From Manihot esculenta (lineage: Eukaryota > Streptophyta > Magnoliopsida > Malpighiales > Euphorbiaceae), in the NCBI RefSeq assembly GCF_001659605.2, contig NC_035177.2:34054136-34118135 (forward strand): a DNA stretch of 64,000 nt, written 5' to 3'. The notes below the pieces were generated by a model, which did not search any database, was not told the origin of the DNA, and saw only the letters and a program-made list of their open reading frames with translations. Shown piece after piece: positions 27,880-57,026 of this stretch (the first letter of the stretch is position 1; each line of letters starts with the position of its first letter). A program made the translations under genes and the position numbers.

Positions 27880-30800
27880 ATGTTTATTTTCTATTTTATG
27901 CTAAAATTAAAATCAAAATATACATTTGAATGAATGCCAAATGTATAATTTACTTTTTTATTTGCTATTTTTTAATCACTTTAATTTTTTTATTATATTT
28001 TTTCATTTTATAATTTTTATAATTTTTTAATTATTTTAAAATTGTTATTTATTTTACATTTTATAATTCTATTTTATTTTTAAAATTTTTTTAATTTTTT
28101 TAATATTTAATAAAATTTATATATTTAAAATAAATATAAATAAAAGTTTAAAAAATATATTTTTTAATATATATAAAAAAAATAAAATAGATAAAAATTA
28201 TGAGAATGGAAAAATGAGAATGGGAGCATTATGTATTGATTTAAAGAAAAATTTTATTTTAATTTAAAATTATTTTTATACTCTTTTTCCAACTTTGAAA
28301 ACTCATTTTGCAAATCAAATTGAAAATACTTTTTATTTTTTATTTTTCTTTTATTATGTTTGAATTAATAAAAATAAAATATTTAGAATTATAGAATAAA
28401 ATTATTATATATTTAATATAATATAAATATTAATTTATAATATTTTATTATAATATATTATTTGGGGTCGGATATTAGGTGACAACCGAAAGGAGTGCGT
28501 CGCGCCATTAAATTGGCGGGCATTATTTGTTTTCTTTTTTTTTTTAAATTATAGCCATAATTTAGTTTTTTTATTTTTTAATTATTAATATATTATAATA
28601 AAATATTTATGTTATATTAATTTATTACTATAATATATTTTATTAATTTTAACATATTATTATAATAATATTATAATTAAATAATATTAATTATAAATTT
28701 ATTTACTATTATTAAATATATGTATAAGAGTATTGAATTAAATAATTAATAAATAAATAAGTTAATTAATTAATATGAATATTTAAAATTATAAAAATTA
28801 AATTTATTTTTTATTCGACTGCTATTTAAAATTATAAAATAAAATTATATTATAATTTAAATAATTAATGAATAAATAAATAAATATGGATATTTAAAGT
28901 TATAAAAATTAAATTTACTTTTTATTAGGTTGTGCATTGTTGTTGTGGTTCTAATTCAATTGAAAAATCGTGCAGAAATCATATAAAAAAAATTAATAGT
29001 ATAGAAATTAAATTGAATTTATTTCATTATTTAATTCAAGTTAAGATTTTTTATAAAAATTGTAACTAATCGAAATCGTATAAAAAAATTAATATTAAAT
29101 TAATATTATAGCTAAATATATAATTTACTATTTTATTTGTTATTTTTTAATAGCTTTAATTTTTTAATATATTTTTTATTTTATAATTTTTATAATTTTT
29201 TAATTATTATAAAATTGTTAGTTATTTTATTTTTTATATTTTATTTAATTTTATTTTATTTTTAAAAATTTTTAAAATTTTTTTAATATTTAATAAAAAT
29301 TATATATTTAAAATAAATATAATTAAAAATTAAAAAAATATTTTTTAATATATATATAAAATAAATAAAATAAATAAAAATTATGAAAATAAAAAATGAG
29401 TTACATTAGTTTTTGCAATTGGAGCATTATGTCTTTACTTCAATATATTAAGAATTAAATTATTAGTTTGGATTGATACGGAAAAAGTTGAAGGAAAGAA
29501 AAATATTTTCAAAAAAAATTGATTTAAGGAAAACATATTTTAATTTAAAATTATTTTTATACACTATGTTGCGATTCTTCTTATTTTTATTTTTTTTTAT
29601 TATGTTTGAATTAATAAAAATAAAATATTTAAAATTATAAAATAAAATTATTATATATTTAATATAATATAAATATTAATTTATAATATTTTATTATAAT
29701 ATATTATTTGGAGTCAGGTGTTTGGTGATAATCGAAAAGAGTGTTTGGCGTTTGTTAACTAGACATGCATTATTTGTTTTTTTTTTTAAATTGTGCCCAT
29801 AATTTAATTTTTTTATTTTTAATTATTAATATATTATAATAAAATATTTATATTATATTAATTTAATATATTACTATAATATATTTTTATTAATTTTAAC
29901 ATATTATTATAATTAAATAATATTAATTATAAATTTATTTATATGTCTATAAAGTATTGAATTAAATAATTAATAAAAAAATAAATAAATAAGTTAATGA
30001 ATTAATATAAATATTTAAAATTATAAAAATTAAATTTACTTTTTATTAAACTGCTATTGAATTATATATATATTTGAAATAAATGAATAAATGATGGATA
30101 TTCATACTCCTGGAAACTTGGATGATTCAGAAGATGATGATGATGAAACTGAAGCATATTAAGACCCTGGAAACTTGATGATTCAGAAAATGATGATGAC
30201 GAAGGAGCCCGAGGCATATGCAACTTAAATCTGGAGCCCAAGGCATATAAAAATTTCATTTATAAAATCTTTGACTATCAAGATTAATTAAAATTAAGTA
30301 GAAGTCACCATATGCTTAATTAGTGCTATGTTTTTTGGTAAATTCTAATCGAATTGAAAAATTTCGACATTGATCTCGTTATTTAGTTTGAGATAAGATT
30401 TTTTATTAAAAATTATGCTGATATTAAAAAATAATATTAAATTAATATTATATATATTTTTAAATAATTTATAGTAATATTATAATTTTAATATATATTT
30501 TCAATGATACATTTTATATTACATATAATTTTAATAAGATTACGTACATGTATATTTGCAATAATATTTAATTTTTAAATATTTTTTACCATTTTATTTA
30601 TATTATATATATATATAATATTATACTATTAAAATATAAATTATTAAAATAATTATATATATATTTATAATTGTTATTATTATCTATATAAAATATTATA
30701 CTATTAATTTTATAGTATTTTTATATTTTAAAAATATTTTTATAAAATATAATAACTATTTATAATTGATCTTATTACTTTGTAGAATTATAAAAAAATT

Positions 30801-31971
30801 ATTGATACTATTTAATTACAGATTTATTATATTAATTTATTAAAATAATAAAAAATTTTATCACTGGATAAATGTATATAATATGATTAAATTATTTTTA
30901 TACGTCTAATAGCAACATAATATTAATTTTAAGATTTTAAAATTATATAATACTAATAATTTTTTATTTAAATATTAATAATAAAATTTATTAAATATTA
31001 ATATATTAAAATTATAAAAAATATTTATTATTATAAAAATATAATATAAATAATATTATTAGATTAATATAATATAAATATATTATTATAATATATTAAT
31101 AAATAAAAAATAAAAAAAATTAAATCATTCCCTAAATCACTCTAAATTAGAGTCAGGTTATTATTATTATTTTTTTTTTTAAGAATAGCCCTGGTGTAAC
31201 TCACAGTGGCACCCGACTATAATTTAAATTTTTTATTTTTTTAATCATTAAAATATTATAATAATATAAATTAATTAATATATTATTTTTATATTATATT
31301 AATTTAATAATTTTATTCATATTATATTTTTTAATAATAATTTTTTATAATATAGTTTATTAATTTTACTGAGTTGTTATTATACCGTAGTAAATAATTA
31401 TAAAATAATATTAAATTTATGATATTATACATAATTATAGAATAATATTAATTTTATAATCTTGAAATTATATAAGATCAATAATATTTTTAATTTAAAT
31501 ATTAATAATAAAATATATTGAATATTAATATATTTTATATATTAATATTTAAAATTATAGGACAAAATTATGTTGTGGTTATCAACCGATTGTTTATAAT
31601 TTATCAAAAATAATAAATTTAATTAATTTATTTTATGATTAAATTGAATTATTCATTTACCTATTATAATTTTATTTTATTTTATTTTATTTTTTAAAAT
31701 TTTTTTAAAATTTTTAATATTTAATAAAATTTAATATATTTAAAATAAATATAATTAAAAAATTAATAAAAAAATTATATTTTTTAATATATGTAAAAAA
31801 ATGAGATACCTTATTTTTTGCAATTGGAGTATTATATCTTTACTCTAACATTTTAAAAATTAAATTATCTAGTTTGGATTGATACAGAAAAAGTTAAAAG
31901 AAAAATATTTTCTAAAAGAATTGATTTAAAGAAAAATATTATTTTAATTTAAAATTATTTTTATACTCTTT
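27880..31971. repeat. AT-rich backbone repeats, left part of the array
   Basis: About two and a half copies of the backbone (markers at 28465 and 29710). They are followed by a different AT block (about 30350-31130) containing TTACGTACATGTATATTTG, which reappears at about 37490 in the next large unit. Almost no G or C occurs apart from the markers. No coding potential was seen except the short acidic module at 30090-30255. Confidence 0.8.
30090..30255 (+). pseudogene. short CAP-H2-like acidic exon module
   Basis: GATTCAGAAGATGATGATG-type sequence reads PGNLDDSEDDDDE followed by an arginine/asparagine/leucine-rich tail. It matches the acidic end of exon 4 in the CAP-H2 copy at 31972-33420 (LENLEDSEDDDDKDG). 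A second, more decayed copy of the module follows directly. The flanking sequence after it also matches what follows exon 4 in the full copies. Confidence 0.6.
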
Positions 31972-33411
31972 GGAGCTGCTTTGCTGCTTCAAGAATCGGT
32001 TCAGGTGTATAGCCGGAGGGTTGAGTATTTATATAATATGGCGTTGCATGTTTTGGAGCTTCTTTCTAAAAAGAGGTTTGATTTCTGTATTTTCCCTCCG
32101 ACTTTTATCATTTCTTTATGATTAAGTTCTAATTGGACTAAATAAAGCAAATATTTTGTAAAAAGTTAATTTCTCTCTCTAAAATTACTGGATATATATT
32201 TTAGAGGACTTAGAGGTCATATCTTTTTTCCATTTAATTGTAAAAAGTACATGTAACTTTTAATTTTGTTATTATGCTCATGATTTTATAAATTTATTGT
32301 TGCCGAATTCACATTGACTTTTAATTTTCAAAAATTTGTTATCGCCTTTTATATATGATATGTAAAGCTGATAATGTGTTATATATTTTAGAATGCGTAT
32401 GTACCTGCTGCACACCCCAAGTTATGCTTATTTTGTCAATAAATTTCACAAGTTTTACTTTTGTGAATATAGCTGCCCAGATCATTTTATCAATATTTGA
32501 ATTTGATTTACTTTTACATCGGCTTGCCCATTTATTGGGAGCCACTATGCCAATTATATAGTACTTTTGTTGATTTTATGCATTTGGAATAGACAGGAGC
32601 AATCAGAGGGCACATCAGTTCAGCTAGAGCAAAGTGGTTCCCATGCAGTTTCTCATGAAGAAAATGATCAATTTTGGTGCCTAGATGATGTCCCTAGTGG
32701 GTTTAAATACTTCACTCTATATGGTGATGCTATAATGCAAATATCAACTAAATTGTTTATTATAAGGCAGTGGAAGCAAGGAATTCTTTAGATACTTCAA
32801 CTAGTAAAGATGCTCTTTCTATCACTTTGTGAAACCACCAGCAAACCTTGTTCTTGAAGGTGATTGCTTGAATACCAGTGGTGATAGTAGAGAATTAGAA
32901 TTATATCTGGTATGACTTATGTTTACACTTTTCCTATATTGATGAATTTTCTATCTGCTTGATAGTCTTTTTTTGCATTCTTTGTAGTTAGTCATCAATG
33001 ATCTTTACAGGGATTTTATTGTTTTAGATCCATGTCATTCCGTGGTAGTGGATGATTTTTTGAAGGGAGATGAAATTGGGAAAAGTACCAAACAGTATTT
33101 ATAGGGGAAGCTCAATTTGCAAGAGCTTTCAGTCCCCCACAAGACTTCCAGGGAACTGCACACAACTATGGCTTGGAAAGAACCTGGATGAAAATCTCAA
33201 TCAACCTCCTATGGAAGATTACAGTGTTGGAGTGAATAACTGTAATGTAGAGCCCATATATTTCTGCTTATGGTAATTATGAAGATGGTAACCATGGGTT
33301 TGATATGTTTGATATGGATGATGGATATGCAAAACTTGAAAACTTGGAGGATTCAGAAGATGATGATGATAAAGATGGAAGAGGCATACGCAACTTAAAT
33401 TTGGTCTGATA
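31972..33411 (+). pseudogene. CAP-H2 (condensin-2 subunit H2) gene fragment, copy 1, most complete
   Basis: CAP-H2 is the kleisin-associated HEAT-subunit partner specific to condensin II. Four exon-like blocks lie in gene order with introns kept. Exon 1 (31972-32075) reads [18 protein letters not shown]. Exon 2 (32593-32696) ends NDQFWCLDDVP. Exon 3 (about 32771-32909) contains [15 protein letters not shown]. Exon 4 (from 32988) begins with [20 protein letters not shown] text and ends in the acidic DDGYAKLENLEDSEDDDD. The first two blocks align with the N-terminal region of CAP-H2 known from plants and animals. It lacks the extreme N terminus and everything after the acidic stretch. Exon 3 has a one-base deletion near 32815-32820, and exon 4 changes frame after KGDE. 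GT and AG splice signals remain. Not functional; identification is from memory of the family. Confidence 0.85.
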
Positions 33412-36400
33412 GCTATCACTGAAAAAAGATTTTATTTTTAAAATTTTTGTCAATCGCGACAGATTGAAATTTAGTAAAGCCACTATATGCTTTAACTAGG
33501 GTTGTGCATGATTTTTGTGATTTTTGTGAGTTTTAAAATAAAATTAATTAAAAGTTAAAAAATATATTGCTTAATATATATAAAAAATAAAATAAATAAA
33601 AATTATGAGAATAAAAATGAGATATATTATTTTTTACAATTGGAGCATTATGTTTTTACTCCAACATTTTAAAAATTAAATTATCTAGTTTGGATTGATA
33701 CCAAAAAGTTGAAGAAAAGAAAAATATTTTCTAAAAAAAAGTTTATTTAAAGAAAAACATTATTTTAACTTAAAATTATTTTTATACTCTTTCCCCAACT
33801 TTGAAAACCCATTTTGCAAATCAAATTTAAAATACTTCTTATTTTTTTTATTTTTTTTATTATGTTTGAATTAATAAAAATAAAATATTTAGAATTATAA
33901 AATAAAATTAATACATATTTAATATAATACAAATATTAATTTATAATATTTTATTATAATATATTATTTGGGGTCAGATGTTAAATTATAATCGAAAAGG
34001 GTATTTGGCGTTTGGTATTATTTGTTTTGTTTTTTTTAAATTGTGGCCATAATTTAATTTTTTTATTTTTTAATTATTAATATATTATAATAAAATATTT
34101 ATATTTTATTAATTTACAAGAGTATTGAATTAAATAATTAATAAATTAATTAATTAATGAATATGAATATTTAAAATTATAAAAATCAAATTTATTTTTA
34201 TTGGACTGCTATTTAAAATTATAGAATAAAATTATGTTGTAATTTAAATAATTAATGAATAAATTAATTAATTGATTAATTAATATGGATATTTAAAATT
34301 ATAAAAACTAAATTTATTTTTTATTGGGTTGTGCATAGTTCTTGTGGTTGTAATTCAATTGAAAAATCTTATTGAAATTATATAAAAAAAATAAAAAATA
34401 AATAGTGTAAAAATCGAATAGAATTTATCTCGTTATTTAATTCAAGTTAAGATTTTTTTATAAAAATCGTACCTAATCGAAACTGTATAAAAAAAATTAA
34501 TATTAAATCAATATTATATATGCGAAATATATAATTTACTATTTTATTTGCTATTTTTCAATAGCTTTAATTTTTTATTATATTTTTTTATTTTATAATT
34601 TTTGTTATTTTTTAATTATTATAAGATTGTTATTTATTTTATTTTTTATAATTATATTTAATTTAATTTAATTTTTAAAAACTTTTAAAATTTTTTTAAT
34701 ATTTAATAAAAATTATATATTTAAAATAAATATAAATAAAAGTTAAAAAAATATATTTTTTTAATATATATAAAAAAAATAAAATAAATAAAAATTATGA
34801 GAATGAAAAACATTAGTTTTTGCAATTGGAGCATTATGTCTTTACTCCAACATTTTAAGAATTAAATTATCTAGTTTGGATTGATACGGAAAGAGTTGAA
34901 GGAAAGAAAAATATTTTCTAAAAAAAGTTGATTTAAAGAAAAACATTATTTTAATTTCAAATTATTTTTATACTCTTTCCCCAACTTTGAAAACCCATTT
35001 TGCAAATTAAATTTAAAATACTTCTTATTTTTTTATTTTTCTTTATTATGTTTGAATTAATAAAAATAAAATATTTAAAATTATAGAATAAAATTATTAT
35101 ATATTTAATATAATATAAATATTAATTTATAATATTTTATTATAATATATTATTTGGGGTCGGATGTTAAATAATAATCCAAAATGGTGTTTTGTGTCTG
35201 TTAAATAGGCGGGTATTATTTATTTTATTTTTTTAAATTGTGGTCATAATTTATTTTTTTTTATTTTTAAATTATTAATATATTATAATAAAATATTTAT
35301 ATTTTATTAATTTAATATATTACTATAATATATTTTATTAATTTGAACATATTATTATAATAATATTATAATTAGATAATACTAATTATAAATTTATTTA
35401 CTGTTATTAAATATATGTACAAGAGTATTTAATTAAATAATAAATTAATTAATTAATTAATATGAATATTTAAAATTATAAAAATTAAATTTATTTTTTA
35501 TTGCACTGCAATTTAAAATTATAGAATAAAATTATGTTGTAATTTAAATAATTAATGAATAAATAAATAAATTAATTGATTAATTTATATGGATATTTAA
35601 AATTCTAAAAATTAAATTTATTTTTTATTGGATTGTGCATGTTTCTTGTGATTCTAATTCAATTGAAAAATCGTATCGAAATCATATAAAAAAAAGAAAA
35701 TAAAAAATAAAAAATTAATAGTGTAGAAATCGAATCGAATTTATCTCGTCATTTAATTCAAGTTAAGATTTTTTATAAAAATAGTACTTAATCGAAACCA
35801 TATAAAAAAATTAATATTAAATCAATATTATATATACGAAATATATAATTTACTATTTTATTTGCTATTTTTTAATAGTTTTAATTTTTTATTATATTTT
35901 TTTATTTTATAATTTTTATTATTTTTTAATTATTATAAAATTGTTATTTATTTTATTTTTTATAATTCTATTTTATTTTATTTGTAAAAATTTTTAAAAT
36001 TTTTAATATTTAATAAAAATTATATATTTAAAATAAATTTAATTAAAAATTAAAAAAATATTTTGTAATATATATAAAAAAATAAAATAAATAAAAATTA
36101 TGAGAATAAAAAATGAGCTACATTATTTTTTCCAATTGGAGCATTATGTCTTTACTCCAACATCTTAAGAATTAAATTATCTAGTTTGGATTGATGCGGA
36201 AAAAGTTGAAGGGAAGAAAAATATTTTCTAAAAACTTTGATTTAAAGGAAAACATATTTTAATTTAAAATTATTTTTATACACTCATTTTGCAATTCTTT
36301 TTATTTTTATTTTTTTATTATGTTTGAATTAATAAAAATAAAATATTTAAAATTATAAAATAAAATTATTATATATTTAATATAATATAAATATTAATTT

Positions 36401-38571
36401 ATAATATTTTATTATAATATATTATTTGGGGTCGGGTGTTAAATGATAGTTGAAATGGGTGTTTGCCTTGTTAAGTAAGCGGGCATTATTTGTTTTGTTT
36501 TTTTTTTAAAAATTGTGCTCATAATTTAATTTTTTTTATTTTTTATTATTAATATATTTTTATTAATTTTAACATATTATTATAATTAAATAATATTAGT
36601 TATAAATTTATTTACTGTTATTAAATATGTTTACAAAGTATTGAATTAAATCATTAATAAAAAAATAAATAAATAAGTTAATTAATTAATATAAATATTT
36701 AAAATTATAAAAATTAAATTTACTTTTTTATTAGACTGCTATTTGATTTGATATATATATATATTTGAAATGAATGATAGATATTCAGACCTGTATGATT
36801 CAGAAGATGATGACGACGATGAAGCTCGAGGCATATTAAGTCCCTGAAAACTTGATGAATGATAGATATTCAAATCTGTATGATTCAGAACATGATGACG
36901 ACTTTGAAGCTCGAGGCATATTAAGTCCCTGGAAACTTGATGATTCAGAAGATGATGATGACGGATGAAGCTCGAGGCATATTAAGTCCCTGGAAACTTG
37001 ATGATTCAGAAGATGATGATGACGAATGAGTCCGAGGCTTAAATATGGAGTCCGAGGCTTAAATATGGAGTCCAAGGCATATGCAATTTAAATCTGAACT
37101 TATAGCTATCACTAATAAAAATTTTATTTGTAAAATTTTTGCCAATCACGATTAATTGAAACTAAGTAGAAGGCACCATATGCTTAATTAGAGTTGTATA
37201 TAGTTCTTGTAAATTTGATAGTTCTTGTAAATTCGATTCTTCTTGTAAATTTTAATAGAATTGAAATCATATCGAAATTCTAAGAGAAAAGAAATTAGAG
37301 AGTTTAGAAATCGAATCGAATTTATCTCGTTATTTAATTTGAGTTAAATTTTTTTATTAAAAGTTATATTGATATTAAAAAATTAATATTAAATTAATAT
37401 TATATATATTTTTAAATAATTTATAATAATATTATAATTCTAATATATATTTTCTTGTCATTTTATATTACATATAATTTTAATAAAATTACGTACATGT
37501 ATATTTGTAATAATATTTAATTTTTAAATTTTTTTATCATTTTATTTTTATTATATTATATCTAAATAAATTAAATATATATAAAATATTATACTATTAA
37601 AAAATAAATTATTAAAATAATTACATATATATTTATAATTGTTATTATTATCTATATAAAATATTATACTATTAATTTTTATAATATTTTTATATATTAA
37701 AAATATTTTTATAAAATATAATAACTATTTATAACTGGTCTTAATATTTTGTAAAATTATAAAATAACATTAAACGTGTATAAAATTACTGATACTATTT
37801 AATTATAAAATTATTATATTAATTTATTAAAATAATAAAAAATTTTATCACTAGATAAATGTATACTTTATGATTAAATTATTTTTATACGTTTAATAGC
37901 AACATAATATTAATTAAAATTCTGAAATTATATAATATTAATAATTTTTTATTTAAATATTAATAATAAAATCTATTAAATATTTATATATTAAAATTAT
38001 AAAAAATATTTATTATTATAAAAATATAATATAAATAATATTATTAAATTAATATAATATAAATATATTATTATAATATATTAATAAATAAAAAATAAAA
38101 AATTAAATCATTTCCTAAATCACTCTAAACGGGGCGAAGTCATTATTATTATTATTATTATTTTAAGAATAGCCATAGTGTAACTCACAGTTGCATTCGA
38201 CTATCATTTAAATTTTTTTATTTTTTAATTATTAAAATATTATAATAATATAAATTAATTAATATATTATTTTTATATTATATTAATTTAATAATTTTAT
38301 TTATATTATATTTTTTAATAATAATTTTTTTATAATATATTTTATTAATTTTATTGGATGGTTATTATGCGGTCGCAAATATTTATGAAATAATATTAAT
38401 TTTATGATACTGAATATCATTATAGAATAATATTAATTTTATAATTTTGAAATTATATAATGTCAGTAATATTTTTAATTTAAATATTAATAATAAAATA
38501 TAATATATTTTATATATTAATATTTAAAATTATAGAACAAAATTATTTTGTGATTAAATATTGTATTCAGT
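33412..38571. repeat. AT-rich backbone repeats between CAP-H2 copies 1 and 2
   Basis: Three backbone units (markers near 33970, 35157 and 36428; spacings about 1.19 and 1.27 kb), then the acidic module at 36780-37090. After that comes the AT block with the ACGTACATGTATATTTG marker. The order repeats that of 28.4-32 kb, so the region from about 30.1 kb to 36.8 kb is one large repeat unit of about 6.7-6.9 kb. Confidence 0.8.
36780..37090 (+). repeat. minisatellite made from the CAP-H2 acidic exon module
   Basis: Four tandem versions of a 60-75-bp unit of the form GATTCAGAAGATGATGATGA, then GCTCGAGGCATATTAAGTCC, then TGGAAACTTGAT. They are followed by two copies of GAGTCCGAGGCTTAAATATG. Each unit could encode a DDSEDDDD-type acidic string, but frames are interrupted by stops. 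It corresponds to the single module at 30090-30255, expanded locally. Confidence 0.75.
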
Positions 38572-38776
38572 TGCCCATTTATTGGGAGCCACTATGTCAT
38601 TAGTACTCTTGTTGATTTTATGCATTTGGAATAGACAGGAGCAATCAGAGGGCACATCAGTTTAGCCAGAGCAAAGTGGTTCCCATAATGATCAATTTTG
38701 GTGCCTATGTCCCTGGGTTTAAATACTTCACTCTATATGATGATACTATGATGTAAATATCAGCTAAATTGTTCAT
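38572..38776 (+). pseudogene. CAP-H2 copy 2, exon-2 part, separated from the rest
   Basis: Carries the end of intron 1, a shortened exon 2 (ACAGGAGCAATCAGAGGG then internal deletions) and the start of intron 2 up to AAATTGTTCAT. At 38777 it breaks into AT-rich backbone. The last 55 or so bases (ATACTTCACTCTATATG...TTGTTCAT) are present again at 39576, where copy 2 resumes. Confidence 0.82.
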
Positions 38777-39575: not shown

Positions 39576-40190
39576 ACATACTTCACTTTATATGGTGATG
39601 CTATGATGCAAATATCAGCTAAATTGTTCATTATAAGGCAGTGGAAGTAAGGAATTCCTTAGATACTTTAACTAGTAAAGATGCTTTTTTATATCACTTT
39701 GTGAAACCACCAGCAAACCTTGTTGTTCTTGAAGGTGACTGCTTGGATACCAGTGGTAGAGAATTAGAATCATACCTAGTATGACTTATGTTTGCACATT
39801 TCCTATATTATGAATTTTCTATCTGCCTGACCCTTGTCTTTTTTTCCATACTTTGTAGTTAGCCACCAATGATCTTTACAGAGATTTTATTCTTTTAGAT
39901 CCATGCGATTCCATGGCAGTAGATGATTTTTTGAAGGGAGATGAAACTGGAAAAAGTACCAAACAGTACTTATAAGGGAAGCTCAACTTGCAAGAGCTTT
40001 CAGTCTCCCACGAGACTTCCAGAGAAGTGCACACAACTACCGCGAGGAAAGAATCTGGATGAAAATCTCAACCGACCTCCTATGGCTGATTAAAGTGTTG
40101 GAGTGAATAACTGTAATGTAAAGCCCATATGAAGATGATGATGACTAAGATGGAACTCGAGGCATATGAAACTTAAATTTGGTCTAATGG
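39576..40190 (+). pseudogene. CAP-H2 fragment copy 2, exons 3-4
   Basis: Begins inside intron 2 (CATACTTCACT). Exon 3 is open through [18 protein letters not shown] and ends at a GTATGAC donor. Exon 4 starts after TTTGTAG with [17 protein letters not shown] and then changes frame. The acidic end is shortened: CCCATAT joins directly to GAAGATGATGATG, removing about 105 bases present in copy 1. The stretch reads GACTAAGATGG here where its sisters read GACAAAGATGG. Confidence 0.85.
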
Positions 40191-42752: not shown

Positions 42753-44778
42753 TTACCACTAAAAAGAAGATTTTATTTTTAAAATCTTTGTCAATCGCGA
42801 CCGATTGAAATTTAGTAGAGCCACCATATGCTTTAATTAGGGTCTTGTATGGTTCTTGTGAGTTCTATACAAAATTAATATTAAATTAATATTATATATG
42901 CCAAATGTATAATTTATTATTTTATTTGTTATTTTTTAATTGCTTTAATTTTTTATTATTTTTTTATTTTATAATTTTTATTATTTTTAATTATTTTTTT
43001 TCATAATTCTATTTTATTTTATTTTATTTTAAAAATTTTTAAAATTTTTTAATATTTAATAAAATTTATATATTTAAAATAAATATAATTAAAAGTTAAA
43101 AAATATATTTTTTAATGTATCTAAAAAAATAAAATAAATAAAAATTATAGAATGAAAAATGAGATACTATTATTTTTTGCAATTAGAGCATTATGTCTTT
43201 ACTCCAACATCTTAAAAATTAAATTATCTAGTTTGGATTGATACGGAAAAAGTTGAAGGAAAGAAAAATATTTTCTAAAAAACGTTAACATTATTTTAAT
43301 TTAAAATTATTTTTATACTCTTTCCCAACTTTGAAAACCATTTTGCAAATCAAATTTAAAATACTTTCTTATTTTTTTATTTTTCTTTATTATGTTTGAA
43401 TTAATAAAAATAAAATATTTAGAATTATAGAATAAAATTATTATATTTTTAATATAATATAAATATTAATTTATAATATTTTATTATAATATATTATTTG
43501 GGGTCGGGTGTTAAATAATAATCCAAAAGTGTGTTTGGCGTTTGTTAAATAGGCGGGTATTATTTGTTTTGTTTTTTTTAAATTGCGGCCATAATTTAAT
43601 TTTTTTATTTTTTAATTATTAATATATTATAATAAAATATATATATTTTATAAATTTAATATATTATTATAATATATTAAATTAATTTTAACATATTATT
43701 ATAATAATATTATAATTAGATAATACTAATTATAAATTTATTTACTGTTATTAAATATATGTACAAGAGTATTGAATTAAATAATTAATAAATAAATAAA
43801 TAAATTAATTAATATGAATATTTAAAATTATAAAAATCAAATTTATTTTTTATTAGACTGCTATTTAAAATTATAGAATAAAATTATGTTGTAATTTAAA
43901 TAATTAATGAATAAATAAATAAATTAATTGATTAATTAATATGGATATTTAAAATTATAAAAATTAAATTTATTTTTTATTGGGTTGTGCATAGTTCTTG
44001 TGGTTGTAATTCAATTGAAAAATCGTATACAAATTATATAAAAAAAATAAATTGTATAAAAATCGAATCGAATTTATCTCGTTATTTAATTCAAGTTAAG
44101 ATTTTTTATAAAAATCGTACCTAATCGAAACCATATAAAAAAATTAATATTAAATTAATATTATATATGCGAAATATATAATTTACTATTTTATTTACTA
44201 TTTTTCAATAGCTTTAATTTTTTATTATATTTTTTTATTTTATAATTTTTACTATTTTTTAATTATTATAAAATTGTTATTTATTTTATTTTTTATAATT
44301 CTATTTATATTTATTTTATTTTTAAAAATTTTTAAAAGTTTTTTAATACTTAATAAAATTTATATATTTAAAATAAATATAATTAAAAATTAAAAAATAT
44401 TTTTTTAATATATATATATATATAAATAAAATAAATAAAAATTATGAGAATAAAAAATGAGTTACATTATTTTTTGCAATTGGAGCATTATGTTTTTACT
44501 CCAACATTTTAAGGATTAAAAGATCTAGTTTGGATTGATACGGTAAAAGTTGAGCGAAAGAAAAATATTTTCTAAAATAATTTAAAGGAAAACAAATTTT
44601 AAATTAAAATTATTTTTATATATATTTTAATTAAAATTTAAAATTAATTTAAAAAATTTAAAGGAAAACATACTTTGTAAAATTATGAAATAACATTAAA
44701 CGTGTATAAAATTACACTGATACCATGTAATTGCAGAATTACTATATTAATCTATTACTGATACTATGTAATTGCAGA
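42753..44778. repeat. AT-rich spacer between CAP-H2 copies 3 and 4
   Basis: Near-identical to 40191-42202 by eye, with the marker near 43500. It ends with the duplicated ACTGATAC...GTAATTGCAGA segment. Confidence 0.8.
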
Positions 44779-45392
44779 CATATTTCACTCTATATGGTGA
44801 TGCTATGATGCAAATATCAGCTAAATTGTTCATTATAAGGCAGTGGAAGTAAGGAATTCCTTAGATACTTCAACTAGTAAAGATGCTTTTTTCTAACCAC
44901 CGGCAAACCTTGTTGTTCTTGAAGGTGACTGCTTGGATACCAGTGGTGATGGTAGAGAATTAAAATCATACCTAGTATGACTTATGTTTGCACATTTCCT
45001 ATATTATGAATTTCTATCTGCCTGATTTCAGACACTTGTTTTTTTCTACATACTTTGTAGTTAGCCACCAATGATCTTTACAGAGATTTTATTATATTAG
45101 ATCCATGTGATTCCATGGCAGTAGATGATTTTTTGAAGGGAGATGAAATTGGAAAAAGTACCAAACAGTACTTATAAGGGAAGCTCAACTTGCAAGAGCT
45201 TTTAGTCTCCCACAAGACTTCCAGAGAAGTGCACACAACTACTGCGAGGAAAAAATCTGGATTAAAATCTCAACCGACCTCCTATGGCTGATTACAGTGT
45301 TGGAGTGAATAACTGTAATGTAAAACCCATATGAAGATGATGATGACAAAGATGGAACTCGAGGCATATGAAACTTAAATTTGGTCTAATAG
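44779..45392 (+). pseudogene. CAP-H2 fragment copy 4
   Basis: Has the end of intron 2 including TTATAAGGCAGTGGAAG, then exon 3 with a short deletion after AAAGATGCTTTTTTCTA that removes part of the HFVKP text. Intron 3 carries a small insertion (TTTCAGACACTTG). Exon 4 shows the shared frame change and short acidic end (AACTCGAGGCATATGAAAC form). Confidence 0.85.
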
Positions 45393-47594
45393 TTACCACT
45401 AAAAAGAAGATTTTATTTTTAAAATTTTTGTCAATCGCGACCGATTGAAATTTAGTAGAGCCACCATATGCTTTAATTAGGGTCTTGTATGGTTCTTGTG
45501 AGTTCTATACAAAATTAATATTAAATTAATATTATATATGCCAAATGTATAATTTATTATTTTATTTGTTATTTTTTAATTGCTTTAATTTTTTATTATA
45601 TTTATTATTTTATAATTTTTATTATTTTTAATTATTTTTTTTCATAATTCTATTTAATTTTATTTTATTTTTAAAATTTTTTAATATTTAATAAAATTTA
45701 TATATTTAAAATAAATATAATTAAAAGTTAAAAAATATATTTTTTAATGTATCTAAAAAAATAAAATAAATAAAAATTATAGAATGAAAAATGAGATACT
45801 ATTATTTTTTGCAATTAGAGCATTATGTCTTTACTCCAACATCTTAAAAATTAAATTATCTAGTTTGGATTGATACGGAAAAAGTTGAAGGAAAGAAAAA
45901 TATTTTCTAAAAAAGTTAACATTATTTTAATTTAAAATTATTTTTATACTCTTTCCCCAACTTTGAAAACCCATTTTGCAAATCAAATTTAAAATACTTT
46001 CTTATTTTTTTATTTTTCTTTATTATGTTTGAATTAATAAAAATAAAATATTTAGAATTATAGAATAAAATTATTATATATTTAATATAATATAAATATT
46101 AATTTATAATATTTTATTATAATATATTATTTGGGGTCGGATGTTAAATAATAATCGAAAAGGGTGTTTGGCGTCTGTTAAATAGGCGGATATTATTTGT
46201 TTTATTTTTTTTCAATTGTGACCATTATTTAATTTTTTTTATTTTTTAATTATTAATATATTATAATAAAATATTTATATTTTATTAATTTAATATATCA
46301 CTATAATATATTTTATTTATTTTAACATATTATTATAATAATATTATAATTAGATAATACTAATTATAAATTTATTTACTGTTATTAAATACATGTACAA
46401 GAGTATTCAATTAAATAATTAATAAATAAATAAATAAATAAATTACTTAATTAATATGAATATTTAAAATTATAAAAATTAAATTTATTTTTTATTGCAT
46501 TACTATTTAAAATTATAGAATAAAATTAGGTGGTAATTTAAATAATTAATGAATAAATAAATTAATTAATTGATTAATTAATATGAATATTTAAAATTAC
46601 AAAAATTAAATTTATTTTTTTTATTGAATTGTGCATGATTCTTGTGGTTCAAATTCAATTGAAAAATCTTATCGAAATCATATAAAAAAAATAAAAAATA
46701 AAAAATTAATAGTGTACAAATTGAATCGAATTTATCTCGTTATTTAATTCAAGTTAAAATTTTTTATAAAAATCGTACCTAATCGAAAATATATAAAATA
46801 ATTAATATTAAATCAATATTATATATCCGAAAGATATAATTTACTATTTTATTTGCTATTTTTTAATAGTTTTAATTTTTTATTATATTTTTTTATTTTA
46901 TAATTTTTATTATTTTTTAATTATTATAAAATTGTTATTAATTTTATTTTTTATAATTCTATTTTATTTTATTTTATTTTTAAAAATTTTTAATTTTTTT
47001 TTAATATTTAATAAAAATGATATATTTAAAATAAATTTAATTAAAAATTAAAAAATATTTTGTAATTCTAATATATATTTTGTAATCGAATCGAATATAT
47101 ATTTTGTAATTCTAATATATATTTTGTAATCGAATCAAATTTATCTCTTTATTTAATTTGAGTTAAGATTTTTTATTAAAATTTATACCGATATTAAAAA
47201 AATAATTTATAATAATATTATAATTCTATTATATATTTTCAGTGATGCATTTTATATTACATATAAATTGTATGTGTGCAATAACATTTAATTTTTAAAT
47301 ATTTTTTACCATTTTATTTTTATTATATTATATGTAAATAGATTATATATATATATATAATATTATACTATTAAAATATAAATTATTAAAATAATTACAT
47401 ATATATTTATAATTGTTATTATTATCTATATAAAATATTATACTATTAATTTTTATAATATCTTTATAAAATATAATAATTAATCTTAGTACTTTGTAGA
47501 ATTATGAAATAACATTAAACGTGTATAAAATTACTGATACTATGTAATTGCAGAATTATTATATTAATATATTACTGATACTATGTAATTGCAG
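45393..47594. repeat. AT-rich spacer between CAP-H2 copies 4 and 5 (type II end)
   Basis: Starts like the preceding spacers (marker near 46133). Its right end is different: short repeats of TTTTGTAATTCTAATATATA and GTAATCGAATCGAA (47055-47150) lead into the AT block with TTGTATGTGTGCAATAACAT. The same right end occurs before copies 7 and 8. Confidence 0.8.
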
Positions 47595-48199
47595 ACATAC
47601 TTCACTCTATATGGTGATGCTATGATGCAAATATCAGAATTCCTTAGATACTTCAACTAGTAAAGATGCTTCTTTTTATCACTTTGTGAAACCACCAGCA
47701 AACCTTGTTGTTCTTGAAGGTGATTGCTTGGATACCAATGGTGATGGTAGAGAATTAGAATCATACCTAGTATATCTTATGTTTGCACATTTCCTATATT
47801 TATGAATTTTCTATCTGCTTGATTTGTTTTTTTCTGCTTGATTTGTTTTTTTCTGCATACTTTATAGTTAGCCACTAATGATCTTTACAGAGATTTTATT
47901 CTTTTAGATCCATGCGATTCCGTGGTAGTGGATGATTTTTTAAAGGGAGATGAAACTGAGAAAAGTATCAAACAGTACTTATAGGGGAAGCTCAACTTGC
48001 AAGAGCTTTCAGTCCCCCCACAAACTTCCAGGGAAGTAGACACAACTATGGCTTGGAAAGAACCTGGATGAAAATCTCAACCAACCTCCTATTGCTGATT
48101 ACAGTGTTGGAGTGAATAACTGTAATGTAGAGCCCATATGAAGATGATGATGACAAAGATGGAATCCGAGGCATACCAAACTTATATTTGGTCTAATGG
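47595..48199 (+). pseudogene. CAP-H2 fragment copy 5
   Basis: Intron 2 is shortened: AAATATCAG joins GAATTCCTTAGATAC, removing about 35 bases that include the exon-3 acceptor, a deletion shared with copies 7 and 8. Exon 3 keeps [18 protein letters not shown]. Exon 4 has the common frame change. The acidic end is of the AATCCGAGGCATACCAAAC form. Confidence 0.85.
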
Positions 48200-50354
48200 T
48201 TATCACTAAAAAGAAGATTTTATTTTTAAAATCTTTATCAATCGCGACCAATTGAAATTTAGTATAGCCATCATATGCTTTAATTATGATTGCGCATGGT
48301 TTTTGTGAGTTCTAATTGAGTTGAACAACCGTACTCAAATCTTATATGAAAAAAAAAATTGATAGTGTAACTCGTTTAAATTAGGATTTTTTATTAAGAA
48401 TCGTAACAAATGGAAACTGTATACAAAATTAATATTAAATTAATATTATATATGGCAAATGTATAATTTATTATTTTATTTGTTACTTTTTTAATTGCTT
48501 TATTTTTTATTATATTTTTTTATTTTATAATTTTTATTATTTTTAATTATTTTAAAATTGTTATTTATTTTATTTTTCATAATTCTATTTTATTTTATTT
48601 TATTTTTAAAAATTTTTAAAATTTTTTAATATTTAATAAAATTTATATATTTAAAATAAATATAATTAAAAGTTAAAAAAATATTTTTTAATGTATATAA
48701 AAAAATAAAATAGATAAAAATTATAGAATGAAAAATGAGATACTATTATTTTTTGCAATTAGAACATTATGTCTTTACTCCAACATCTTAAAAATTAAAT
48801 TATCTAGTTTGGATTGATACAGAAAAAGTTGAAGGAAAGAAAAATATTTTCTAAAAAATGTTGATTTAAAGAAAAATATTATTTTAATTTAAAATTATTT
48901 TTATACTCTTTCCCCAACTTTGAAAAGCCATTTTGCAAATCAAATTTAAAATACTTCTTTTTTTTTCTTTATTATGTTTGAATTAATAAAAATAAAATAT
49001 TTAGAATTATAGAATAAAATTATTATATTTTTAATATAATATAAATATTAATTTATAATATTTTATTATAATATATTATTTGAGGTCGGGTGTTAAATAA
49101 TAATCGAAAAGTGTGTTTGGCGTTTGTTAAATAGGCGGGTATTATTTGTTTTGTTTTTTTAAATTGCGGCCGTAATTTAATTTTTTTATTTTATAATTAT
49201 TAATATATTATAATAAAATATTTATATTTTATTAATTTAATATATTATTATAATATATTTTATTAATTTTAATATATTATTATAATAATATTATAATTAG
49301 ATAATACTAATTATAAATTTATTTACTGTTATTAAATATATGTACAAGAGTATTGAATTAAATAATTAATAAATAAATTAATTAATTAATTAATATGAAT
49401 ATATAAAATTATAAAAATCAAATTTATTTTTTATTGGACTGCTATTTAAAATTATAGAATAAAATTATGTTATAATTTAAATAATTAATGAATAAATAAA
49501 TTAATTAATTGATTAATTAATATGGATATTTAAAATTATAAAAATTAAATTTATTTTTTATTGGGTTGTGCATAGTTGTTGTGGTTATGGTTATAATTCA
49601 ATTGAAAAATCGTATCCAAATTATATAAAAAAAATAAATAGTATAAAAATCGAATTGAATTTATGTCGTTATTTAATTCAAGTTAAGATTTTTTATAAAA
49701 ATCTTACCTAATCGAAACCATATAAAAAAATTAATATTAAATTAATATTATATATGCGAAATATATAATTTACTATTTTATTTACTATTTTTCAATAGCT
49801 TTAATTTTTTATTATATTTTTTATTTTATAATTTTTACTATTTTTTAATTATTAAAAAATTGTTATTTATTTTATTTTTTATAATTCTATTTATATTTAT
49901 TTTATTTTTAAAAATTTTTAAAATTTTTTTAATACTTAATAAAAATTACATATTTAAAATAAATATAATTAAAAATTAAAAAATATTTTTTAATATATAT
50001 ATATAAATAAAATAAATAAAAATTATGAGAATAAAAAATGAGTTACATTATTTTTTGCAATTGGAGCATTATGTTTTTACTACAACATTTTAAGGTTTAA
50101 AAGATCTAGTTTGGATTGATTGGTAAAAGTTTACCGAAAGGAAAATATTTTCTAAAATAATTTAAAGGAAAACAAATTTTAATTTAAAATTATTTTATAT
50201 ATATTTTAATTAAAATTTAAAATTAATTTAAAAAATTTAAAGGAAAACATACTTTGTAGAATTATGAAATAACATTAAACGTGTATAAAATTACTGATAC
50301 CATGTAATTGCAGAATTACTATATTAATCTATTACTTATACTATGTAATTGCAG
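48200..50354. repeat. AT-rich spacer between CAP-H2 copies 5 and 6
   Basis: Begins with a GAGTTGAACAACCGTACTCA segment seen only after copies 5, 6 and 8. The backbone marker is near 49083. It ends with the type I right end (AATTTAAAGGAAAACATACT, then the duplicated GTAATTGCAGA segment). Confidence 0.8.
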
Positions 50355-50973
50355 ACATACTTCATTCTATATAGTGATGCTATGATACAAATATCAGCTA
50401 AATTGTTCATTATAAGGCAGTGGAAGTAAGGAATTCCTTAGATACTTCAACTAGTAAAGATGCTTTTTTCTATCACTTTGTGAAACCACCAGCAAACCTT
50501 GTTGTTCTTGAAGGTGACTGCTTGGATACCAGTGGTGATGGTAGAGAATTAGAATCTTACTTAGTATGACTTATGTTTGCACATTTTCTGTATTTATGAA
50601 TTTTCTATCTGCCTGATTTGTCTTTTCTGCATACTTTATAGTTAGCCACCAATGATCTTTGCAGAGATTTTATTCTTTTAGATCCATGTGATTCCGTGGT
50701 AGTTGATGATTTTTTAAAGGGAGATGAAACTGGAAAAAGTACCAAACAGTACTTATAGGGGAAGCTCAACTTGCAAGAGCTTTCAGTCCCCCACAAACTT
50801 TCAGAGAAGTGCACACAACTATGGCTTGGAAAAGAACCTGGATGAAAATCTCAACCAATCTCCTATGGCTGATTACAGTGTTGGAGTGAATAACTGTAAT
50901 GTAGAGCCCATATGAAGATAATGATGACAAAGATGGAATCCGAGACATACCAAACTTATATTTGGTCTAATGG
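50355..50973 (+). pseudogene. CAP-H2 fragment copy 6
   Basis: Among the better preserved tandem copies. Intron 2 end with TTATAAGGCAGTGGAAG, exon 3 open through [18 protein letters not shown] to a GTATGAC donor, and exon 4 from [17 protein letters not shown] with the shared frame change. The downstream form (AATCCGAGACATACCAAAC) matches copies 5 and 8, while the upstream form matches copies 2-4. Confidence 0.86.
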
Positions 50974-52653
50974 TTATCACTAAAAAGAAGATTTTATTTT
51001 TAAAATCTTTATCAATCATGACCAATTGAAATTTAGTATAGCCATCATATGCTTTAATTAGGATTGTGCATGGTTTTTGTGAGTTCTAATTGAGTTGAAC
51101 AACCATACTCAAATCGTATATGAAAAAAAATTGATAGTGTAACTCGTTTAAGTTAGGATTTTTTATTAAGAACCGTAACGAATGGAAATTGTATACAAAA
51201 TTAATATTAAATTAATATTATATATGGCAAATGTATAATTTATTATTTTATTTGTTACTTTTTTAATTGCTTTAATTTTTTATTATATTTTTTTATTTTA
51301 TAATTTTTATTATTTTTAATTATTTTAAAATTGTTATTTATTTTATTTTTCATAATTCTATTTTATTTTATTTTTAAAAATTTTTTAATATTTAATAAAA
51401 TTTATATATTTAATATAATATAAATATTAATTTATAATATTTTATTATAATATATTATTTGGGGTCGGATGTTAAATAATAATCGAAAAGGGTGTTTGGC
51501 GTCTGTTAAATAAGCGGGTATTATTTGTTTTGTTTTTTTTAAATTGTGGCCATTATTTAATTTTTTTTTATTTTTTAATTATTAATATATTATAATAAAA
51601 TATTTATATTTTATTAATTTAATATATTACTATAATATATTTTATTTATTTTAACATATTATTATAATAATATTATAATTAGATAATACTAATTATAAAT
51701 TTATTTACTGTTATTAAATACATGTACAAGAGTATTCAATTAAATAATTAATAAATAAATTACTTAATTAATATGAATATTTAAAATTATAAAAATTAAA
51801 TTTATTTTTCATTGCACTACTATTTTAAATTATAGAATAAAATTATGTTGTAATTTAAATAATTAATGAATAAATAAATTAATTAATTGATTAATTAATA
51901 TGAATATTTAAAATTATAAAAATTAAATTTATTTTTTTATTGGATTGTGCATGATTCTTGTGGTTCTAATTCAATTGAAAAATCTTATCGAAATTATATA
52001 AAAAAAATAAAAAATAAAAAATTAATAGTGTAGAAATTGAATCGAAATTATCTCGTTATTTAATTCAAGTTAAAATTTTTTATAAAAATTGTACCTAATT
52101 GAAACCGTATGAAATAATTAATATTAAATCAATATTATATATGCGAAATATATAATTTACTATTTTATTTGATATTTTTTAATAGTTTTAATTTTTTATT
52201 ATATTTTTTATTTTATAATTTTTATTATTTTTTAATTATTATAAAATTGTTATTTATTTTATTTTTTATAATTCTATTTTATTTTATTTTATTTTTAAAA
52301 ATTTTTTATTTTTTAATATTTAATAAAAATTATATATTTAAAATAAATTTAATTAAAAATTAAAAAATATTTTGTAATTCTAATATATATTTTGTAATCG
52401 AATCGAATATATATTTTGTAATTCTAATATATATTTTGTAATCGAATCGAATTTATCTCTTTATTTAATTTGAGTTAAGATTTTTTATTAAAATTTATAC
52501 CGATATTAAAAAAATAATTTATAATAATATTATAATTCTAATATATATTTTCAATGATACATTTTATATTACATATAAATTGTATGTGTGCAATAACATT
52601 TAATTTTTAAATATTTTTTACCATTTTATTTTTATTATATTATATGTAAATAG

Positions 52654-52717
<64 letters not shown>

Positions 52718-52932: not shown

Positions 52933-53526
52933 CATACTTCACTCTATATGGTGATGCTATGATGCTATGATGCAAATATCAGAATTCCTTAGATACTTCA
53001 ACTAGTAAAGATGCTTCTTTTTATCACTTTGTGAAACCACCAGCAAACTTTATTGTTCTTGAAGGTGATTGCTTGGATACCAATGGTGATGGTAGAGAAT
53101 TAGAATCATACCTAGTATGAGTTATGTTTGCACATTTCCTATATTTATGAATTTTCTATCTGCTTGATTTGTTTTTTTTCTGCATACTTTATAGTTAGCC
53201 ACCAATGATCTTTACAGAGATTTTGTTCTTTTAGATCCATGCGATTCAATGGCAGTGGATGATTTTTTGAAGGGAGATGAAACTGGAAAAAGTACCAAAC
53301 AGTACTTATAAGGGAAGCTTAACTTGCAAGTGCTTTCAGTCTCCCACAAGACTTCCAGAGAAGTTCACACAACTATCGCTAGGAAAGAATCTTGATGAAA
53401 ATCTCAACCAACCTCCTATGACTGATTACAGTGTTGGAGTGAATAACTGTAATGTAAAGCCCATATGAAGATGATGATGACAAAGATGGAACCCGAGGCA
53501 TATGAAATTTAAATTTGGTCTAATGG
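52933..53526 (+). pseudogene. CAP-H2 fragment copy 7
   Basis: Intron 2 has the 35-base deletion of the type II units and a 9-base duplication (GATGCTATGATGCTATGATG). Exon 3 reads on to [18 protein letters not shown]. The donor is now GTATGAG. Exon 4 has the shared frame change. The downstream form (ACCCGAGGCATATGAAATT) is like copies 2-4, not like its upstream relatives 5 and 8. Confidence 0.85.
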
Positions 53527-55721
53527 TTACCACTAAAAAGATTTTATTTTTAAAATCTTTGTCAATCGCGACCGATTGAAATTTAGTAGAGCCACCATAT
53601 GCTTTAATTACGGTCGTGTATGGTTCTTGTGAGTTCTATATAAAATTAATATTAAATTAACATTATATATGCCAAATGTATAATTTATTATTTTATTTGT
53701 TATATTTTAATTGCTTTAATTTTTTATTATATTTTTTATTTTATAATTTTTATTATTTTTAATTATTTTATTTTTCATAATCTATTTAATTTTATTTTTA
53801 AAATTTTTAAAATTTTTTAATATTTAATAAAATTTATATATTTAAAATAAATATAATTAAAAGTTAAAAAATATATTTTTAATGTATATAAAAAAATAAA
53901 AAAAATAAAAATTATAGAATGAAAAATGAGATACTATTATTTTTGCAATTAGAGCATTATGTCTTTACTCCAACATCTTAAAAATTATATTATCTAGTTT
54001 GAATTGATACGGAAAAAGTTGAAGGAAAGAAAAATATTTTCTAAAAAAATAGAAAAGTTAACATTATTTTAATTTAAAATTATTTTTATACTCTTCCCCA
54101 ACTTTAAAACCCATTTTGCAAATCAAATTTAAAATACTTTCTTATTTTTTTTATTATGTTTGAATTAATAAAAATAAAATATTTAGAATTATAGAATAAA
54201 ATTATTATATATTTAATATAATATAAATATTAATTTATAATATTTTATTATAATATATTATTTGGGGTCGGATGTTAAATAATAATCGAAAAGGGTGTTT
54301 CGCGTCTGTTACATAGACGGGTATTATTTGTTTTGTTTTTTTTAAATTGTGGCCATAATTTAATTTTTTTTATTTTTTAATTATTAATATATTATAATAA
54401 AATATTTATATTTTATTAATTTAATATATTACTATAATATATTTTATTAATTTTAACATATTATTATAATAATATTATAATTAGATAATACTAATTATAA
54501 ATTTATTTACTGTTATTAAATACATGTACAAGAGTATTCAATTAAATAATTAATAAATAAATTACTTAATTAATATGAATATTTAAAATTATAAAAATTA
54601 AATTTATTTTTCATTGCACTACTATTTAAAATTATAGAATAAAATTATGTTGTAATTTAAATAATTAATGAATAAATAAATAAATTAATTGATTAATTAA
54701 TATGAATATTTAAAATTACAAAAATTAAATTTATTTTTTTATTGGATTATGCATGATTTTTGTGGTTCTAATTCAATTTTGTGGTTCTAATTCAATTGAA
54801 AAATCTTATCAAAATCATGTAAAAAAAATAAAAAATAAAAAATTAATAGTGTAGAAATTGAATCGAAATTATCTCGTTATTTAATTCAAGTTAAAAGTTT
54901 TTATAAAAATCGTACCTAATTGAAACCGTATGAAATAATTAATATTAAATCAATATTATATATTCGAAATATATAATTTACTATTTTATTTGCCATTTTT
55001 TAATAGTTTTAATTTTTTATTATATTTTTTATTTTATAATTTTTATTATTTTTTAACTATTATAAAATTGTTATTAATTTTATTTTTTATAATTCTATTT
55101 AATTTTATTTTATTTTTAAAAATTTTTAAATTTTTTTAATATTTAATAAAAATTATATATTTAAAATAAATTTAATTAAAAATTAAAAAATATTTTATAA
55201 TTCTAATATATATTTTGTAATGGAATCGAATATATATTTTGTAATTCTAATATATATTTTGTAATCGAATCGAATTTATCTCTTTATTTAATTTGAGTTA
55301 AGATTTTTTATTAAAATTTATACCGATATTAAAAAAATAATTTATAATAATATTATAATTCTAATATATATTTTCAATGATACATTTTATATTACATATA
55401 AATTGTATGTGTGCAATAACATTTAATTTTTAAATATTTTTTACCATTTTATTTTTATTATATTATATATAAATAGATTATATATATATATATATATATA
55501 ATATTATACTATTAAAATAATTACATATATATTTATAATTGTTATTATTATCTATATAAAATATTATACTATTAAATTTTATAATATCTTTATAAAATAT
55601 AATAATTAATCTTAATACTTTGTAGAATTATGAAATAACATTAAACGTGTATAAAATTACTGATACTATGTAATTGCAGAATTATTATATTAATCTATTA
55701 CTGATACTATATAATTGCAGA
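53527..55721. repeat. AT-rich spacer between CAP-H2 copies 7 and 8
   Basis: Backbone with its marker near 54265. A small tandem duplication of TTTGTGGTTCTAATTCAATT lies at about 54758-54800. The right end is type II (55195-55285), with an AT run near 55478. Confidence 0.8.
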
Positions 55722-56327
55722 CATACTTCACTCTATATGGTGATGCTATGATGCAAATATCAGAATTCCTTAGATGCTTCAACTAGTAAAGATGCTTCTT
55801 TTTATCACTTTGTGAAACCACCAGCAAACCTTGTTGTTCTTGAAGGTGATTGCTTGGATACCAATGGTGATGGTAGAGAATTAGAATCATACCTAGTATG
55901 AGTTATGTTTGCACATTTCCTATATTTATGAATTTTCTATCTGCTTGATTTGTTTTTTTCTGCTTGATTTGTTTTTTTTCTGCATACTTTATAGTTAGCC
56001 ACCAATGATCTTTACAGAGATTTTATTCTTTTAGATCCATGCGATTCTGTGGTAGTTGATGAATTTTTGAAGGGAGATGAAACGGTAAAAAGTATCAAAC
56101 AGTACTTATAGGGGAAGCTCAACTTGCAAGAGCTTTCAGTCCCCCCCACAAACTTCCAGGGAAGTGCACACAACTATAGCTTGGAAAGAACCTGGATGAA
56201 AATCTCAACCAACCTCCTATTGCTGATTACAGTGTTGGAGTGAATAACTGTAATGTAGAGCCCATATGAAGATGATGATGACAAAGATGGAATCCGAGGC
56301 ATACCAAACTTATATTTGGTCTAATGG
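55722..56327 (+). pseudogene. CAP-H2 fragment copy 8
   Basis: Type II upstream form with the 35-base intron-2 deletion. Exon 3 is open through [18 protein letters not shown]. Intron 3 has a duplicated TGCTTGATTTGTTTTTTTC segment also seen in copy 5. Exon 4 begins [17 protein letters not shown] with the common frame change. The downstream form (AATCCGAGGCATACCAAAC) is as in copy 5. Confidence 0.85.
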
Positions 56328-57026
56328 TTATCACTAAAAAGAAGATTTTATTTTTAAAATCTTTATCAATCGCGACCAATTGAAATTTAGTATAGCCATC
56401 ATATGCTTTAATTATGATTGCGCATGGTTTTTGTGAGTTCTAATTGAGTTGAACAACCGTACTCAAATCTTATATGAAAAAAAAAAATTGATAGTGTAAC
56501 TCGTTTAAATTAGGATTTTTTATTAAGAATCGTAACGAATGGAAACTGTATACAAAATTAATATTAAATTAATATTATATATGGCAAATGTATAATTTAT
56601 TATTTTATTTGTTACTTTTTTAATTGCTTTAATTTTTTATTATATTTTTTTATTTTATAATTTTTATTATTTTTAATTATTTTAAAATTGTTATTTATTT
56701 TATTTTTCATAATTCTATTTTATTTTATTTTATTTTTAAAAATTTTTAAAATTTTTTAATATTTAATAAAACTTATATATTTAAAATAAATATAATTAAA
56801 AGTTAAAAAAAATGTTTTTTAATGTATATAAAAAATAAAATAGATAAAAATTATAGAATGAAAAATGAGATACTATTATTTTTTGCAATTAGAACATTAT
56901 GTCTTTACTCCAACATCTTAAAAAATTAAATTATCTAGTTTGGATTGATACAGAAAAAGTTGAAGGAAAGAAAAATATTTTCTAAAAAATGTTGATTTAA
57001 AAAAATATATTATTTTAATTTAAAAT
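56328..57026. repeat. AT-rich spacer after CAP-H2 copy 8, cut by the Tat-type insertion
   Basis: Matches 48200-48895 closely and stops at TTAATTTAAAAT, where sister units continue with TATTTTTATACTCTTTCC. The break coincides exactly with the LTR start at 57027. Confidence 0.82.

Follow-up and report, generated by a model that had tools for sequence, protein, structure and literature searches.

Described systems and the cassava locus

The Su(Ste) unit of Drosophila measures about 2.8 kb, a value unlike the one printed in the source cited next. As described in that source, Su(Ste) consists of tandem units in which a region homologous to a protein-coding gene is combined with an adenine- and thymine-rich (AT-rich) region; the units carry frameshifts, are transcribed and processed, and number more than 500 copies on the Y chromosome, with a hoppel insertion, a Piwi-interacting RNA (piRNA) function and a printed unit size of 28 000 nt (PMC9031259). 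The locus reported here holds eight copies of a fragment of CAP-H2, the gene of a condensin II subunit, within a 64,000-nucleotide stretch of cassava (Manihot esculenta; contig NC_035177.2, positions 34,054,136 to 34,118,135), which is referred to below as the window. Compared with Su(Ste), the nearest described anatomy, the cassava array is likewise made of frameshifted tandem units that are partly gene-homologous and partly AT-rich; however, it comprises eight copies in the window, belongs to a plant, derives from another gene and is known here from DNA alone.

Two further systems bear comparison. In the grasshopper Eyprepocnemis plorans, a transcribed pseudogene of CAP-G is reported from a B chromosome (PMC5732253, abstract). 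As at the cassava locus, a gene for a condensin subunit has become a pseudogene in unusual chromosomal surroundings; CAP-G, however, belongs to condensin I, its surroundings are a B chromosome, and tandem units with AT-rich spacers are not mentioned in the abstract. It is also documented that tandem repeats of long terminal repeat (LTR) retrotransposons have given rise to plant satellites (PMC7004042); these share the expansion of a short pre-existing repeat array, but their source is a retrotransposon, in contrast to the gene exons, introns and AT-rich modules found here.

An earlier reading made from the letters alone (hereafter the sequence-only reading) held that a satellite seeded from a condensin gene was not a repeat class known to have been described. 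This claim needs qualifying, since the general kind is described for Su(Ste) (PMC9031259). The repeat class already exists, while the CAP-H2 source and the plant setting are new as far as the searched literature shows: no CAP-H2-derived tandem repeat was named in the titles or abstract openings among the matches listed, with most subscription papers outside the searched literature. The locus is probably a local array in which a non-coding pseudogene fragment, captured once, stands in tandem after amplification of one founder unit.

Architecture of the array

The array (coordinates in Table 1) has a guanine plus cytosine content of 17.7% and is built mostly of three modules, as defined by module tiling: X (about 1.3 kb; reference copy 34327-35639), Y (about 1.2 kb, with partial copies within some spacers) and G, in which a short tail, T, follows the CAP-H2 gene fragment. 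The tiling left 14 gaps of 32-330 bases, including 103 bases preceding the array. The longest form of G occurs once (copy c1, 31972-33499) and is the only one of the eight copies to keep exons 3 and 4; the shorter form, exon 5-intron 5-exon 6, occurs seven times (c2 to c8, 39578-56439). By blastn and module tiling, all eight copies of the exon 5-intron 5-exon 6 fragment stand head to tail on the plus strand, with start-to-start steps from c1 to c8 of 6871, 2626, 2576, 2817, 2760, 2577 and 2789 bp, and together with three smaller CAP-H2-derived pieces they span 30091-56439. The layout given by the sequence-only reading (eight direct exon-intron-exon copies and three smaller pieces, spaced at 6.9 kb and then 2.55-2.8 kb) is thereby confirmed. 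Since a query of exons 5 and 6 matches all eight copy sites at a blastn expectation value (E) of at most 2.4e-148, chance likeness is ruled out.

The spacers are of two types, namely X ending near its position 646, or X ending near 445 and followed by part of Y, and tail T passes directly into an X-type start in c1 to c8. No open reading frame (ORF) of at least 100 amino acids was found inside the array, and a search of the window gave no known RNA family reaching gathering scores. Inside the array, at 36770-37029, codons of the acidic run of CAP-H2 exon 6 form a further tandem repeat on a smaller scale, a nested minisatellite with periods of 85 and 61 bp.

Both edges need comment. The extent had been given as 30090-57026; the start lies about 2.2 kb earlier, at 27903, while 57026 stands as an edge, albeit one made by the insertion of an LTR element. 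This element, which carries a Retrotrans_gag match (2.4e-13) in an ORF at 57615-59915, interrupts an X module at 57027, so the array may continue beyond it, outside the window; the right edge is thus the insertion point, and the natural end of the array may lie further on. As for the word “satellite”, head-to-tail tandem units and sequence exchange between units (described below) were both found, but eight units at one locus do not establish a satellite, a name that calls for many copies across the genome in long, usually heterochromatic arrays.

Source of the captured fragment

The joined exons of c1 match the Pfam models CNDH2_N (4.1e-19, profile positions 51-117) and CNDH2_M (8.1e-15, profile positions 1-137), and PDB chain 9f5w_H (condensin-2 subunit H2) is matched at 6.6e-7 over query residues 2-80. 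In a protein search with a composite, padded query, CAP-H2 of Hevea (74% identity) and of Manihot (73%) were the best matches within the best 120 of 341. Together with tblastn, these searches agree that the exon texts are those of CAP-H2 of condensin II, as previously proposed. Furthermore, in a 13-sequence protein tree the composite fragment, read through a frame lesion, groups with both Manihot CAP-H2 proteins (P0002 and P0003) at 91% ultrafast bootstrap. The predicted source is a CAP-H2 gene of the Manihot type.

Only a part of that gene is present. When seven full-length CAP-H2 proteins were searched against the window by tblastn (E up to 1), the matches were confined to residues 60-328 over all seven; for Manihot P0002, residues ~61-316 of 674 were matched, with the segment at the end (280-316) matching at E 0.001. 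The same search found neither exons 1-2 nor the C-terminal half in the window. Whereas P0002 and P0003 have matches to all three domain models (N, M and C), the window holds only part of N plus M, and the full length, the C-terminal winged-helix domain and the open frame of a functional CAP-H2 are lacking. A whole CAP-H2 gene with the array lodged in its introns was also considered and rejected, as the seven queries gave no match (E up to 1) outside residues 60-328. The description of a gene turned into a satellite-like array is therefore right as to the tandem arrangement, but what became an array was not the gene: it was a fragment matching residues ~61-316 of 674, in a frame broken before amplification.

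Capture, shared lesions and the order of events

Copy c1 retains three introns, and every one of the eight copies has intron 5, flanked by a GT donor and an AG acceptor. Because the introns are retained, capture took place at the DNA level, and the earlier proposal of a genomic segment captured with its introns and amplified in tandem inside AT-rich repeats stands. A processed (retro)pseudogene was rejected on the same grounds (intron 5 in 8/8 copies, introns 3 and 4 in c1). On its 5' side, the c1 fragment begins where X is joined at the start of exon 3; on the other side, the CAP-H2 match ends in a GAT-rich run near 33376 and gives way to T, which in c1 closes in frame with ...NLNLV-stop.

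The lesions shared among the copies allow the subsequent steps to be ordered. Relative to the CAP-H2 frame, exon 6 carries one extra base: an interval for which the protein frame implies 12 nt measures 13 nt in 8/8 copies, which argues for a single origin and for a frame already lost before amplification. A 96-nt deletion absent from c1 is common to c2 to c8 (7/7), and in the same seven copies Y is joined to the intron preceding exon 5 at an identical junction; this shared junction and deletion point to one founder unit. The present-day c1 is not the direct parent of the other copies, since it lacks a codon in ANLVVLEG that is kept in c2, c4, c5, c6 and c8. The sequence of events suggested by these marks is one capture, loss of frame, formation of one founder unit and amplification.

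Divergence, exchange between units and constraint

In pairwise comparison the eight copies are 89.1-97.9% identical and show many private indels. The divergence of c1 from the other copies is 9.3-10.9%, and that among c2 to c8 is 2.1-10.4%. When whole units are compared, units 2 to 8 are 89.7-98.5% alike, the highest value being reached both by the neighbouring units 2 and 3 (98.5% over 2561 aligned columns) and by units 5 and 8 (98.5% over 1298 aligned columns). Unit 4 is a mosaic, resembling unit 3 on its left (44/56 informative sites) and unit 6 on its right (153/164), with 0/2000 permutations as extreme under a test that takes sites as independent. Five of the seven mosaic tests, that of unit 4 included, gave this result. 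From what is established for tandem repeats, such mosaics suggest unequal crossing over or gene conversion.

Counted over the three codon positions, exon 5 has 6/5/5 variable sites and the part of exon 6 ahead of the shift has 3/6/10. This pattern is close to neutral with a weak third-position lean, and shows little sign of coding constraint. Mean divergence among c2 to c8 is 0.043 in exon 5, 0.084 in intron 5, 0.075 in exon 6 and 0.068 in T, and the short intron piece preceding exon 5 is as low as exon 5 itself (0.042).

A related fusion outside the window

A protein search with the short fragment returned 32 proteins, seven of which were read. Among them, P0241 (147 amino acids, from a 960-bp contig with the source label “lgn”, taken to mean assemblies of public reads) matches CNDH2_M at 1.2e-17 and ends in ...EPENLEDSEDDDDNPGNLEDSEDDDDNDGAQGICNLNLD. 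The window holds at 30109-30236 the duplicated acidic motif of P0241, its repeats lying in two frames, together with a tail like that of P0241 (PWKLDDSENDDDEGARGICNLNLE). In P0241 exons 5 and 6 are joined precisely, with neither the intron nor the frame lesion, and the protein has in-frame gaps of its own. It is thus probable that the fusion of exon 6 to T predates the lesion; in another data set, it is found in a spliced or processed form. DNA patterns for T and X in viral_contigs and for T in genome_contigs gave 0 matches each, which is what plant DNA would lead one to expect.

Proposed origin and competing explanations

In the proposed origin, a genomic stretch of a Manihot-type CAP-H2 gene (exons 3-6 with their introns) would have been joined to the short foreign tail T, and the fusion would have come to rest in AT-rich tandem DNA made of modules X and Y, where the captured fragment lost its reading frame. 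A rearranged derivative (exon 5-intron-exon 6-T, with its 5' side on module Y and 96 nt deleted) may then have served as the founder, its unit of 2.6-2.8 kb comprising the gene fragment and an AT-rich spacer. Misaligned units would then have undergone unequal exchange and/or gene conversion, as the mosaics suggest, which would have raised their number to at least seven and shuffled the spacer types; the LTR element would have cut into the array later. Most likely, there is neither a protein product nor a selected function.

Several observations weigh against this account. In two of the seven recombination tests the outcome was weak or null (29/2000 and 327/2000), the parents in the mosaic tests were chosen after unit similarities had been inspected, and the alignment of AT-rich spacers is less certain. 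The lean of exon 6 variation towards third positions, small as its numbers are, and the low divergence of exon 5 speak against full neutrality. Besides, CAP-H2 proteins, and not the DNA of the source gene, are the reference for the frame lesion, and the open frame of P0241 suggests that somewhere the fusion has been, or still is, transcribed or retro-copied and that at least one form is unbroken.

Gene capture is well known for plant Helitrons and Mutator-like elements (MULEs), and a transposon of the Helitron, Pack-MULE or hAT type could have captured the CAP-H2 exons with T and spread the fusion, the array being a by-product of transposition or self-insertion. The occurrence of a fusion like that of exon 6 and T outside the window (P0241) and the abutment of T on an X-type start in c1 to c8 agree with such an origin, which is nevertheless considered unlikely. 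The edges of c1 and c2 show no excess of terminal inverted repeats over random array pairs, 141/300 and 79/300 of which reached their inverted-match scores, and the X start GGTTGTGCAT, at no more than one mismatch, has 10 forward and 0 reverse matches inside the array. A crude-shuffle version of the terminal-inverted-repeat test had been exceeded by c1 and c2 (0/200 shuffles as high), but a control pair of array edges exceeded it likewise, so it was set aside and replaced by the random array pairs. Helitron ends (TC...CTRR, with a 3' hairpin and constant borders) and target-site duplications were sought by eye, and on that inspection T ends near CTAG in c1 only. An error of assembly, in which a single unit was duplicated in silico, deserves mention since tandem repeats of such a size are hard to assemble. 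It is extremely improbable: false duplications would be near-identical, while the divergence of 2.1-10.9% between copies, their private indels and the corresponding spread among units 2 to 8 speak against it.

A different kind of explanation assigns the array an activity in trans, in which transcripts of its units would give rise to small RNAs and these in turn would damp the gene or genes for intact CAP-H2, as in Drosophila Su(Ste). The anatomy agrees with the one described for Su(Ste) (gene-homologous and AT-rich parts, tandem order, frameshifts; PMC9031259), and a spliced or processed fusion sequence exists in P0241; on the other hand, eight copies in one orientation do not form a hairpin by themselves and little sign of constraint was observed, which makes such silencing quite improbable. 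Its widest form, in which the array and P0241 would belong to a dispersed, transcribed, CAP-H2-derived family in Manihot-like plants that directs small RNAs against a CAP-H2 gene, making it the equivalent of Su(Ste) in plants with condensin II as its target, is highly improbable. A single capture followed by amplification of one founder is the preferred explanation.

The locus offers a clear example of a repeat growing from part of a gene, with the early steps of a repeat family (capture, loss of frame, founder junction and unit exchange) readable from shared lesions. If the fusion proved to be dispersed and transcribed, it would serve to test repeat feedback on condensin II, a shaper of chromosomes. 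If not, models of how satellites are born would gain a clean case, and CAP-H2 annotation in spurges a warning.

Feature coordinates and neighbouring sequence

Table 1. Features of the CAP-H2-derived array and its right-hand boundary (positions in the window).
Feature	Coordinates	Strand	Basis
Whole AT-rich tandem array, right end cut by LTR element	27903..57026	+	module tiling, composition, LTR start
Two tandem X modules (unit ~1.3 kb; first partial), without gene fragment	27903..30066	+	module tiling
Small piece 1: acidic segment of exon 6 in duplicate (PGNLDDSEDDDD) and fusion tail T; repeats in different frames	30091..30317	+	
Module Y, copy 1	30364..31580	+	module tiling
c1 exon 3; 5' side adjoins X; donor GT at 32076	31972..32075	+	edges by eye
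c1 exon 4 (NDQFWCLDDVP)	32593..32696	+	edges by eye
Copy c1, exon 5-intron 5-exon 6 part	32707-33525	+	
c1 exon 5	32771..32909	+	edges by eye
c1 exon 6, with +1 frame lesion common to 8 copies; CAP-H2 homology stops ~33376	32988..33376	+	
Fusion tail T: non-CAP-H2, read ...RGIRNLNLV-stop; similar tail ends P0241	33377..33499	+	
Three successive X modules, full length only in the middle one	33532..36744	+	module tiling
Small piece 2: nested minisatellite (85- and 61-bp periods) from exon 6 acidic segment, and tail T	36759..37216	+	
Module Y, copy 2	37316..38555	+	module tiling
Small piece 3: exon 4 with adjoining intron sequence	38571..38776	+	
Copy c2, founder-type fragment	39578..40302	+	
Copy c3, large part of exon 5 deleted	42204..42864	+	
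Copy c4	44780..45504	+	
Copy c5	47597..48311	+	
Copy c6	50357..51085	+	
Copy c7	52934..53635	+	
Copy c8, spacer truncated by LTR element	55723..56439	+	
5' LTR (TGATGA...TCATCA) of element inserted in array	57027..57533	+	end by eye, before primer-binding-site-like site 57535

Upstream of the array lies a SIN3-like (paired amphipathic helix) gene with an ORF at 20988-21620. Its first match among those listed is a SIN3-like protein of Jatropha, at 88% identity across 82% of the query length; neither Manihot nor Hevea is named in the best 120 of 752 matches, some rows of which are nameless. The relatives of the CAP-H2 and SIN3 sequences mark the window as plant DNA. Further to the left, a Ty3-type retrotransposon occupies 560-4945, with Pfam matches to gag, protease, reverse transcriptase and RNase H in two long ORFs and a further ORF at 3566-4945 that is integrase-like by eye. 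Downstream of the Ty3-type ORFs, a short GC-rich tandem motif with repeated TTCGGCCGCCGAA is found at 5819-6083, followed at 7222-8353 by two ORFs that by eye resemble a decayed copia-type polyprotein. At the other end of the window, close to the LTR element on the right, a repeat whose step is 72 bp (61273-61947) overlaps repetitive ORFs of the minus strand.

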